A stretch of 64,000 bases of DNA from Rhodoflexus caldus. Lineage in GTDB: Bacteria; Bacteroidota; Bacteroidia; Cytophagales; Thermoflexibacteraceae. Position 1 is the first letter of the stretch; the number at the start of each line of letters is the position of its first letter. The notes below the pieces were generated by a model. The model was given only the letters and a program-made list of their open reading frames with translations. It had not been told where the DNA came from and made no database searches. The translations under genes were made by a program, and so were the position numbers. The DNA lies in assembly GCF_021206925.1 (NCBI RefSeq), contig NZ_JAJPRF010000009.1, forward strand, positions 1-64,000, written 5' to 3'. Positions 271 through 3,052 of the stretch are shown here, piece after piece.

Positions 271-302
271 TTTGGAATTGACAAAATCGTTCCGCTACTT
301 TG
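271..302 (+). promoter_or_regulatory. Predicted promoter of the trp leader transcript
   Basis: A TTTG at 271-274 and a TACTTTG at 296-302 are separated by 21 bases. This resembles the Bacteroidota -33/-7 pair (TTTG and TAnnTTTG), although the -7 box has one spacer base fewer than consensus. Transcription would begin close to 308-310, almost on the leader ATG, so the leader peptide may be read from a leaderless or nearly leaderless RNA. This is inference from the motif only. Confidence 0.5.
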
Positions 303-309
303 CGAAGTA

Positions 310-378
310 ATGAAAAATCGAGGCGCGATATTCTTTGGCTATTGGTTCTGGCACATGGGAAACCCGTGTGAACAGTAG
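310..378 (+). CDS. trpL: trp leader peptide, 22 residues
   Basis: A short frame begins with ATG at 310 and ends with TAG at 376-378. Its middle reads FFGYWFWH: two Trp codons (343-345 and 349-351) and four other aromatic residues in an eight-residue stretch. It sits in the transcript leader of trpG-trpD-trpC, directly before a terminator. Such Trp-rich peptides are the sensors of ribosome-dependent attenuation: lack of charged tRNA-Trp stalls the ribosome on these codons. The peptide itself has no other expected role. It has no clear Shine-Dalgarno sequence and starts only 8 bases after the -7 box. Confidence 0.75.
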   Translation: MKNRGAIFFGYWFWHMGNPCEQ

Positions 379-453
379 CCTATTGTCGCAACTGATGATA
401 GATTGAAAACCCAAAAAGGCTTGCTGTTCACCGCAGCAAGCCTTTTTGTTTTG
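337..453 (+). promoter_or_regulatory. trp attenuator with mutually exclusive hairpins
   Basis: The terminator is a perfect 14 bp stem, 413-426 with 434-447, followed by T-rich sequence. Its 5' arm can instead pair with CAG..AGCCT at 373-381 around the leader stop codon (417-421 with 377-381, and 424-426 with 373-375), which would be the antiterminator. Bases 376-380 (TAGCC) can also pair with GGCTA at 337-341, just before the Trp codons, and this would release the terminator. A ribosome stalled on the Trp codons covers 337-341, frees 376-381 and lets the operon be transcribed. A separate local hairpin, 352-359 with 363-370, lies between. The pairings are read directly; the switch mechanism is inferred from known trp attenuators. 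Confidence 0.7.
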
Positions 454-1041: not shown

Positions 1042-2037
1042 ATGAAAGAAATTCTCAACCATCTTTTTGAACACAAAACCTTAGACAAAGCCACTGCCCG
1101 CGAAGTGTTTATCAATTTGGCGCAGGGGCAATACAACAACAGCCAAATGGCCGCTTTTATGACCGTTTTCCTCATGCGCAGCATTACCGTAGAGGAACTC
1201 GGCGGTTTCCGCGATGCCATGCTGGAACTCTGCATCCCGTTCGATACGCAAGGTATGCCCGCCATTGATGTGTGCGGCACGGGCGGCGATGCCAAAGATA
1301 CCTTCAACATTAGCACGCTGGTGTCATTTGTAGTAGCTGGTGCAGGTGTGAAAGTGGTTAAACACGGCAACTACGGCGTTTCTTCGGTGTCGGGCTCGTC
1401 TAACATGCTGGAATATTTCGGCTATCGGTTCACCAACAACCAAGATGATTTGCTGCGCATGTTGGACAGCGCCAATATCGCCTTCCTGCACGCGCCGATG
1501 TTCCACCCCGCTATGAAGAACGTAGCCCCCGTTCGCCGCGAACTGGGTGTCAAAACATTTTTCAATATGTTGGGGCCAATGGTCAATCCTGCTTTCCCCG
1601 ATTACCAGTTTGTCGGAGTTTTCAGCCTTGAATTAGCACGCAAATACGGCTATTTGTACCAGCAAACGGGCAAAAAATTCGCCGTTGTTCACAGTTTAGA
1701 CGGTTACGATGAAATCTCGCTCACCTCGCCCTGCAAAGTCATTGATGCACAAGGCGAGCGCGTAGTGCAGGCGCAAGACTTCGGGTTCAGTGCCAAAACG
1801 CAGGAAAGCCTCTACGGCGGCAAAACCGTAGAAGAAGCAGCCAAAATTTTCACTGAAATTCTGGAAGGCAGAGGCACACAGGCGCAAAACGAAGTCGTGA
1901 TAGCCAATGCCGCCATGGGGCTGCGAACCGTAAACCCTGCGCTGTCTGTTGCCGATGCCGTAGCACAGGCCACCGATTCGCTGATGGGCAAAAAAGCACT
2001 CCATTCGTTTAAAAAACTTGTCAATTATCAATCATAA
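1042..2037 (+). CDS. trpD: Anthranilate phosphoribosyltransferase
   Basis: This enzyme joins anthranilate to PRPP, giving phosphoribosylanthranilate, the second step of tryptophan synthesis. The 331 residues are typical. The glycine-rich PRPP loop is GTGGD (79-83), the KHGN motif is at 107-110, and a later conserved segment has RRELGVKTFFNMLGP. The N-terminal helical domain is complete. The gene lies 10 bases after trpG and is followed by a small unknown gene and trpC, so it is presumably part of the attenuated trp transcript. Confidence 0.95.
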   Translation: MKEILNHLFEHKTLDKATAREVFINLAQGQYNNSQMAAFMTVFLMRSITVEELGGFRDAMLELCIPFDTQGMPAIDVCGTGGDAKDTFNISTLVSFVVAGAGVKVVKHGNYGVSSVSGSSNMLEYFGYRFTNNQDDLLRMLDSANIAFLHAPMFHPAMKNVAPVRRELGVKTFFNMLGPMVNPAFPDYQFVGVFSLELARKYGYLYQQTGKKFAVVHSLDGYDEISLTSPCKVIDAQGERVVQAQDFGFSAKTQESLYGGKTVEEAAKIFTEILEGRGTQAQNEVVIANAAMGLRTVNPALSVADAVAQATDSLMGKKALHSFKKLVNYQS

Positions 2038-2050
2038 ACTCAAAAAAATT

Positions 2051-2257
2051 ATGGAACAATTCATGGAATTGCTGCACCAATTTGAGGCAGCCGAACAACA
2101 GTACATCCGAATTCATCCCGACGCACAGCCTTTGGGCAATTTTTACAACGCTTTCGGCTTAAAAAAGCTACTGGAAATTCTCAAAGAAGCCGACGGGCGA
2201 AAAATCACTTTCAAATTCAACGCAACACTACAGAAATACGAGTACTCATTTGCATAA
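2051..2257 (+). CDS. Small unknown protein inside the trp operon
   Basis: A 68-residue acidic, helical protein starts at the ATG at 2051; an in-frame TTG further upstream overlaps trpD and is unlikely to be used. It starts 13 bases after the trpD stop and ends 3 bases before trpC, so it is tightly embedded in the operon. It has no signal peptide or membrane segment. The C-terminal part (KITFKFNATLQKYEYSF) looks like a beta-hairpin after two helices. I do not recognise a family. Its position suggests a link to tryptophan synthesis or simple co-transcription. Confidence 0.7.
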   Translation: MEQFMELLHQFEAAEQQYIRIHPDAQPLGNFYNAFGLKKLLEILKEADGRKITFKFNATLQKYEYSFA

Positions 2258-2260
2258 AAA

Positions 2261-3052
2261 ATGGACATCCTACAAAAGATAATTGCCCATAAAAAGACCG
2301 AAGTAGCCGCTGCCATGGAGGCGGTTACTTCGGCACAATTGGAGCAAAGCCCGCTGTTTGGCCGCCCGACGGTTTCGCTGAAAAAACGCCTGCAAAGCCC
2401 TTCGGAGCTGCCGCATATCATTGCCGAGTTTAAAAAACAATCACCTTCCAAAGGAGTGATTAACGCCCATGCACAGCCTGCCGAAGTTGCCCGCGGCTAT
2501 CAAGAGGCAGGCGCAGCAGCAATATCGGTACTTACAGATGTAAGTTTTTTTGGCGGAAGCAATGCAGACTTACAAGCTGCCCGCGCTGCCGTTGAAATCC
2601 CGATTTTGCGAAAAGATTTTACCGTTTCGGATTATCAGATTGTTGAGGCCAAGGCATTAGGTGCAGATTTAATCCTGCTGATTGCCGCCGCGCTCACCCC
2701 TGCCGAAATTCGCCAATTTACGCGCACTGCACACGGATTGGGGCTGGAAGTGCTCTTAGAAGTACACAGCGAGGAAGAATTGGAGCGCAGTTTTTTCCCC
2801 GAAATAGACATGGTGGGCGTAAACAACCGCAACCTCAAAACTTTTGAAGTGAGTTTGGAGGTTTCCAAGCGATTGAGCCGCTTGATACCTTCGGGCGTGC
2901 CAAGCGTTTCGGAAAGCGGTATCAGCAGCCTTTCAGAGGTTATTGAACTGCAACAATTTGGTTTTCAAGGCTTTCTGATGGGTGAAAATTTCATGAAAAC
3001 GGCAAATCCTGCACTTGCACTGGCAGATTTTCTGCGGGAAGACGCGCATTGA
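2261..3052 (+). CDS. trpC: Indole-3-glycerol phosphate synthase
   Basis: TrpC closes the indole ring of carboxyphenylaminodeoxyribulose phosphate. The 263 residues form one TIM barrel. Signature segments in order are AEFKKQSPSKG (catalytic Glu56 and Lys58), LTDVSFFGGS, LRKDF, LLEVHSEEEL, VGVNNRNLKTF and VSESGIS. It is the monofunctional form, not fused to TrpF. It starts 3 bases after the small unknown gene. trpF, trpB and trpA are not in the window; the next gene has its own promoter and another role. Confidence 0.95.
   Translation: MDILQKIIAHKKTEVAAAMEAVTSAQLEQSPLFGRPTVSLKKRLQSPSELPHIIAEFKKQSPSKGVINAHAQPAEVARGYQEAGAAAISVLTDVSFFGGSNADLQAARAAVEIPILRKDFTVSDYQIVEAKALGADLILLIAAALTPAEIRQFTRTAHGLGLEVLLEVHSEEELERSFFPEIDMVGVNNRNLKTFEVSLEVSKRLSRLIPSGVPSVSESGISSLSEVIELQQFGFQGFLMGENFMKTANPALALADFLREDAH

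Follow-up and report, generated by a model that had tools for sequence, protein, structure and literature searches.

A putative ribosome-dependent trp attenuator ahead of trpG in Rhodoflexus caldus and the placement of trp leader peptides in Bacteroidota

In the trp attenuator of Escherichia coli, a leader peptide containing Trp codons is coupled to alternative 1:2, 2:3 and 3:4 RNA helices, with the leader stop codon lying in region 2 and a terminator preceding the first trp gene. Leaderless genes are numerous in the phylum that includes Streptomyces. The Trp leader of the E. coli type carries the Rfam number RF00513 (as quoted in PMC4046766). The mechanism is known, and trp leaders that are leaderless have been described before in Sinorhizobium and Streptomyces. 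In Sinorhizobium meliloti, the trpL/rnTrpL attenuator transcript has the leader-peptide ATG at its 5' end (PMC7298713, in part), and trpL1 of Streptomyces lividans (MFAHSTRNWWWTAHPAAH) has been described along with other leaderless leader peptides (PMC8079986, in part).

Reports from Bacteroidota are brief. For Flavobacterium psychrophilum, attenuation of amino-acid operons by upstream leader peptides has been suggested on 'strong clues' (PMC9723704, in part); trpE is absent from the main text of that paper, and the part covered makes no statement on the 5' ends of leader peptides. Small ORFs in long 5' UTRs of Bacteroides thetaiotaomicron have been found reminiscent of leader peptides (PMC7366714, in part). 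Among the open-access matches listed for trp attenuation in Bacteroidetes, Bacteroides or Flavobacterium, no title or opening of an abstract describes it. Older attenuation surveys by Lyubetsky, Seliverstov and colleagues may list Bacteroidota trp leaders, and we therefore claim no priority; as far as we have seen, the attenuator considered here has so far not been described.

A phylum that lacks Shine-Dalgarno sites poses a specific question for this type of regulation, namely, how the first ribosome reaches the leader peptide in time. Here, we show a leader ORF, mutually exclusive helices, their conservation in relatives and an in silico order of folding at the start of a trpG-trpD-ORF-trpC operon of Rhodoflexus caldus, and interpret them, with a probability of roughly 0.88, as a ribosome-dependent transcription attenuator of that operon. 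By sequence and structure, the locus documents a trp attenuator of the classical type for a phylum on which we found only short remarks in print.

The leader ORF and its alternative helices

The window, that is, the whole stretch of 64,000 nucleotides that was analyzed, starts shortly 5' of trpG and belongs to a genome of 3.96 Mb in 40 contigs. Downstream of the leader, the gene order is trpG-trpD-ORF-trpC, with trpE located on another contig (C3):

310-378, plus strand: leader peptide ORF, MKNRGAIFFGYWFWHMGNPCEQ*, identified in the sequence and kept in the congener loci L083, L084 and L085
465-1031, plus strand: trpG, glutamine amidotransferase (PF00117, 2.1e-49)
1042-2037, plus strand: trpD (PF00591/PF02885)
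2051-2257, plus strand: small uncharacterised ORF in the trpD-trpC interval, no Pfam match
2261-3052, plus strand: trpC (PF00218, 6.7e-81)

The leader ORF consists of 22 codons, two of them UGG, and its stop lies 86 nt from trpG, which bears out the frame with two Trp codons reported by an earlier note on this DNA. No Shine-Dalgarno site was seen for it. All named relatives of TrpG come from Bacteroidota, with identity of up to 64% and with Adhaeribacter and Hymenobacter near the top. The small ORF between trpD and trpC shares 48% identity over 54 amino acids with an ORF that follows trpG in the family genome G009 and is possibly an uncharacterised trp-operon protein.

Small ORFs with two Trp residues within four positions occur 12 times on the plus strand of the window and seven times on the minus strand. 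A terminator follows a single such ORF per strand, namely, the leader 310-378 (-24.1 kcal) and a minus-strand ORF (-11.4 kcal) that lies inside a longer ORF. At the gathering score, the sole Rfam match in the window is a tRNA, with no Trp_leader, T-box, riboswitch or other family.

The minimum free energy (MFE) of positions 305-455 is -58.2 kcal/mol, compared with -35.5 +/- 3.5 in 200 dinucleotide shuffles, none of which is as low (z -6.4). The following elements make up the structure:

343-351, plus strand: sensor codons UGG UUC UGG, invariant in four genus members
325-389, plus strand: 1:2 hairpin, composed of 337-344/373-380 (8 bp), an inner stem 352-359/363-370 and an outer stem 325-330/384-389
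368-381 with 417-431, plus strand: antiterminator 2:3, 14 bp, -21.8 kcal/mol
412-427/433-448, plus strand: terminator 3:4, a 16-bp stem, -24.1 kcal, with a U-run at 443-447

The three pairings pointed out in the earlier note are all present, each within a longer helix: its 14 bp terminator (413-426/434-447) is the core of the 16-bp stem, its antiterminator (373-381/417-426) is part of the 14-bp helix, and its 5 bp pairing of 337-341 with 376-380 is part of the 8-bp stem. Both the antiterminator and the terminator, which starts 33 nt past the leader stop, use 417-427 and are accordingly mutually exclusive. Of the two UGG codons, 343-345 extends into the paired part of region 1 and 349-351 falls in the adjoining loop; the leader stop UAG (376-378) sits in region 2.

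We folded the growing transcript step by step, as equilibrium folds rather than kinetics and with assumed ribosome footprints. With no ribosome, region 2 pairs with region 1 once position 381 has been made, and the terminator is in the MFE structure from 3' end 440 onward. Hiding the RNA up to 360, as a ribosome positioned at the Trp codons would, makes the antiterminator the MFE structure at 3' ends 425-440; with the RNA hidden up to 390, as by a ribosome at the stop codon, the terminator forms. The earlier note had named folding with and without a footprint on the Trp codons as a check on its proposal, and the outcome is the switch just described, with the antiterminator favored at 425-440 under the footprint and the terminator otherwise. 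Even with the footprint to 360, the terminator is lower in energy than the antiterminator once the 3' end is at least 444, so that its success has to depend on timing rather than on energy.

From this arrangement, we infer translation of the leader, ribosome stalling, termination and a response to Trp, as follows. RNA polymerase would start at about 307-308, and the first ribosome would initiate on the start codon at 310, very close to the transcript's 5' end. When charged tRNA-Trp is scarce, the ribosome would stall at codons 12/14 and cover region 1, leaving region 2 (368-381) free to pair with region 3 (417-431) as the polymerase passes; with the antiterminator formed, the terminator would not arise in time, and the operon would be read. 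When Trp is ample, the ribosome would reach the stop at 376-378 and mask region 2, or region 2 would pair with region 1; in either case, region 3 would pair with region 4 and transcription would stop near 448. The trp attenuator observed in the earlier note is confirmed in its visible elements, and its interpretation as an attenuator is supported in those parts that sequence can test.

Conservation from the genus to the phylum

Three congeners, with TrpG proteins 98, 85 and 75% identical to that of the window, encode the leaders MKSQGAIYFNCWFWHMGRPCEQ, MSIQSATYFAYWFWYMGYPCEQ and MRKQRATYFAYWFWCMGFPCEQ at the matching place. Y/C-WFW, MG, P and CEQ are kept in these peptides, and UGG-UUC-UGG does not vary across the four genus members. 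In the 1:2 structure, 97.7% of the 88 cells of the four sequences are paired (both unpaired cells are in G003), and three pairs are changed on both sides, as many as in 34 of 500 shuffles. The terminator is paired in 95.3% of 64 cells and has four pairs changed on both sides (12 of 500 shuffles). The antiterminator 2:3 is paired in 92.9% of 56 cells (four unpaired) and shows no covariation across the four genus sequences because it hardly varies. Alignment of related leaders, from which the earlier note expected conserved Trp codons and covarying stems, thus upholds the codons as well as compensatory changes in 1:2 and in the terminator, but not in 2:3. In the congener G001, the stop within region 2 is UGA rather than UAG and region 1 is altered to match; the terminator hairpin is kept there but its U-tract is poor, and the terminator scan gave no call.

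Beyond the genus, Trp-containing leaders stand ahead of trpG in the family genomes G008, G011 and G012. A similar peptide, FGFYWFWH, is found in G009 ahead of a DJ-1-like gene (gene identity read from the sequence) and trpG; there, the leader peptide is kept and the terminator is without CUGUUCAC. In G012, a separate trpE is likewise preceded by a leader (AWW) and a terminator, this being the second leader of that genome; the same holds for G011, with one Trp and read by eye. Since a leader with a terminator stands before the separate trpE (L233, L234) and the separate trpG (L087, L089) of G012 and G011 alike, the leader element may have been duplicated when trpE and trpG were separated. Ahead of trpE in the window's genus (L001, L228, L229 and L235, in G000, G003, G002 and G001, respectively), no Trp leader was found. 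In G000, G003 and G002, TTTG lies only 2-3 nt before the apparent ATG of trpE.

For a broader survey, we started from 80 named trpG loci and searched 1.3-2.2 kb upstream of trpG, at the expected start of trpE, a place inferred from distance and not annotated. Trp-rich small ORFs were obtained as candidates in 61 loci; the other 19 include three left unscanned for having too little upstream DNA. Dropping three loci with unconvincing leaders (L028, L030, L081) and one with two leaders (L064) left 57, to which eight genus and family loci were added, the window included and family leaders ahead of trpE left out, for a set of 65. L008, which has two leaders, was counted by the first, whose start is uncertain (d = 6). 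A strong terminator lies 21-46 nt past the leader stop in 61 of the 65 loci, with no terminator called in L026, L063, L074 and L085. In 36 of these 61, the end of the leader pairs with the 5' arm of the terminator at a level equalled in at most 5% of 100 shuffles; in the remaining 25 it does not.

Tandem modules of a Trp leader and a terminator hairpin precede trpE in L008:721-1016 (a Draconibacterium MAG) and L064:687-1025 (a Bacteroidales MAG); with trpG oriented on the plus strand, the second leader starts past the first terminator in both, and, in L064, the U-tract of the final hairpin is weak. Such tandem attenuators could give a steeper or two-stage response.

The pairing words of the genus also extend more widely. 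A CTGTTC-like word occurs within 120 nt after the leader in 14 of the 65 loci, 11 of which have a GAACAG-like word in the searched stretch too. The CTGTTC-like word of L004 is near the stop, outside the terminator; the GAACAG-like word of L086 is solely inside its own terminator; and L087 and L009 have the terminator word without an exact GAACAG word. Ten loci combine a GAACAG-like region 2 with a CTGTTC-like terminator, namely, the four genus members and L002, L014, L016, L023, L078 and L089, such that the pair of GUGAACAG-like and CUGUUCAC-like words is found in six loci beyond the genus as well. Given that the distances from the leader stop differ among loci, the words are probably kept as RNA pairing rather than as coding sequence.

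Leader starts and promoter elements

Promoter-like elements are located immediately upstream of the leader:

271-274, plus strand: TTTG as a -33 element, from the sequence; TTTG stands 24-25 nt before the -7 TTTG in G000, G003, G002 and G001
296-303, plus strand: TACTTTGC as a -7 element, from the sequence; non-canonical, with the canonical TACATTTG in the congener G001
307-308, plus strand: predicted transcription start, 2-3 nt before the AUG, placed by the spacing from -7 element to start in Flavobacterium johnsoniae

TACTTTGC departs from canonical TAnnTTTG in having its TA one base nearer. Between its G302 and the AUG there are seven bases, and this 7-nt distance from TTTG to the ATG is shared by the four genus members. 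In the probable promoters of F. johnsoniae, 4-5 nt lie between the -7 element and the transcription start (PMC6847099, in part), hence the placement at 307-308. TACTTTGC also fits TAnnTTGY, which is motif SM5 of F. psychrophilum and set apart from the sigma-A box (PMC9723704, in part); G001 has the sigma-A form at the matching place.

The earlier note remarked that the -7 box sits almost on the leader ATG, and this generalizes. Counting as a box TTTG with at least one base of TA, and as a strict box canonical TAnnTTTG, we found 35 of the 65 Bacteroidota loci to have a box, and 23 a strict one, at 4-10 nt upstream of the leader ATG. In 200 rounds of dinucleotide-shuffled upstream stretches, the mean is 3.8 (maximum 11), or 0.49 (maximum 3) for strict boxes. 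For comparison, we took 336 ordinary genes from the loci of the analysis, each preceded by 100 nt of unoccupied DNA and with its start set as the first ATG rather than curated; seven have a box at 4-10 nt and three a strict one. The loci are related and the counts not independent, so that Fisher values for leaders against ordinary genes overstate the evidence. Given any relaxed box within 60 nt, the comparison is 35 of 59 leaders with 7 of 108 genes, and for strict boxes 23 of 38 with 3 of 39. If the shortest start is taken in place of the longest, the count falls from 35 to 34 of the 65 (strict, from 23 to 22). Leaders with a box at 4-10 nt come from Chryseobacterium, Flavobacterium, Cellulophaga, Tenacibaculum, Capnocytophaga, Winogradskyella, Pedobacter, Mucilaginibacter, Pelobium, Sphingobacterium, Chitinophaga, Algoriphagus and Adhaeribacter. 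G001 is among the 35; the window, G002 and G003 are outside them because their box is one base short (TAnTTTG). groES promoters served poorly as a control and were dropped: a canonical box was present in seven of 29 loci, at 52-107 nt, and absent within 150 nt from the other 22.

Leader peptides of other operons differ in this respect. A His-rich small ORF lies upstream in 33 of 59 hisG loci (L242-L270, L112-L141), some of which may be due to chance, since the criterion for a leader was three His in a span of seven residues; ten of the 33 have a box at 4-10 nt. The four genus genomes yielded no His-rich leader in the 1.5 kb upstream of the HisG match. Three of them have a Thr-rich leader (MFVIVVSLYNTTTCGMTTTMP in G000) ahead of an ORF for homoserine dehydrogenase (inferred thrA); in L202, L203 and L204 (G000, G002 and G003, respectively), the leader ORF is NTTTCGMTTTMP and TAGCTTTG lies 26 nt before its ATG. 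In the thr leader search of 20 stretches, five yielded any candidate. The box at 26 nt implies that leaders of the genus do not all have a short 5' UTR. By these sequence counts, the feature of a box close to the ATG is strongest in trp leaders, weaker in his leaders and absent from the genus thr leader.

The earlier note further suggested that the peptide may be read without a ribosome-binding site. That much is normal, Bacteroidota being without Shine-Dalgarno sequences (PMC6847099, in part); the unusual part is the nearly absent 5' UTR, which is predicted. Only about 3.7% of 5' UTRs are under 10 nt in B. thetaiotaomicron (PMC7366714, in part), 5.5% are leaderless in F. psychrophilum (PMC9723704, in part), and 87% of predicted F. 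johnsoniae leaders exceed 10 nt (PMC6847099, in part). We consider it fairly probable that the trp leader peptide of the window starts on a nearly leaderless mRNA, which would be a way to load the first ribosome early, and the same is predicted for many Bacteroidota trp leader peptides.

The alternative that fares best keeps the attenuator as real and has the transcript start further upstream, giving the leader peptide an ordinary 5' UTR. It draws on the off-consensus form of TACTTTGC, on the 30 of 65 leaders that have no box at 4-10 nt, the nearest being elsewhere or missing, on boxes at 31-38 nt in four of five Hymenobacter loci and at 17-24 nt in three Flavobacterium loci, and on the thr leader of the genus with its box at 26 nt. 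Against it stand the exact 7-nt spacing of TTTG in all four genus members, canonical in one of them, the second TTTG 24-25 nt further up, likewise in all four, and the excess of boxes at leaders over ordinary genes. On balance, we regard an upstream start as rather unlikely, although it retains a substantial share of the probability.

Relation to described attenuators

The putative attenuator, with its predicted near-leaderless start, could, besides acting in cis, release a terminated RNA or a peptide that acts in trans too. The rnTrpL/peTrpL precedent of S. meliloti (PMC7298713, in part) and the predicted terminated RNA, about 140 nt long and nearly leaderless, speak for such a role; the conserved core GGCTTGCTGTTCAC has one exact and two one-mismatch matches in the genome, as against one for a reversed control pattern, and we deem the role unlikely. 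That the hairpin is a plain operon terminator, or serves another sensor (T-box, TRAP-like protein or riboswitch), with a Trp-rich ORF nearby by chance, is highly improbable: strong terminators are common, but no T-box or riboswitch accompanies the tRNA match in Rfam, the Trp codons are invariant in the genus, Trp-rich small ORFs recur 1.3-2.2 kb upstream of trpG in 57 of 80 loci, as selected above, and the Trp codons and the stop form the points about which the helices are laid out.

Where a phylum lacks Shine-Dalgarno sites, placing the start codon at the 5' end would be a simple answer to the question of timing in ribosome-dependent attenuation. Whether Bacteroidota attenuator leader peptides, as a class, tend to lie at the extreme 5' end of the transcript (trp, 35/65; his, 10/33; ordinary genes, 7/336) seems to us an evenly balanced matter. 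If they do, a leaderless start would load the first ribosome once the AUG emerges, synchronizing it with RNA polymerase, and, together with the leaderless trp leaders of Sinorhizobium and Streptomyces, this would amount to a convergent design rule of attenuators.

The locus shares with the E. coli trp attenuator (Yanofsky type) the Trp-codon leader, the set of helices, the stop in region 2 and the terminator. Unlike in E. coli, the AUG is predicted to lie 2-3 nt from the 5' end, no Shine-Dalgarno site was seen, the element heads trpG-trpD-trpC, with trpE on another contig, and there is no Rfam match. The attenuators suggested for F. psychrophilum (PMC9723704, in part) have the phylum in common with the window. 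The predicted near-leaderless start has a counterpart in trpL/rnTrpL of S. meliloti, a trp attenuator that starts at the leader ATG, but in another phylum and preceding trpE(G) (PMC7298713, in part). Similarly, trpL1 of S. lividans is a leaderless Trp leader before a trp gene, with a terminator taken as Rho-independent by the authors (PMC8079986, in part); it, too, belongs to another phylum, and its gene is trpE, whereas the first gene in the window is trpG.
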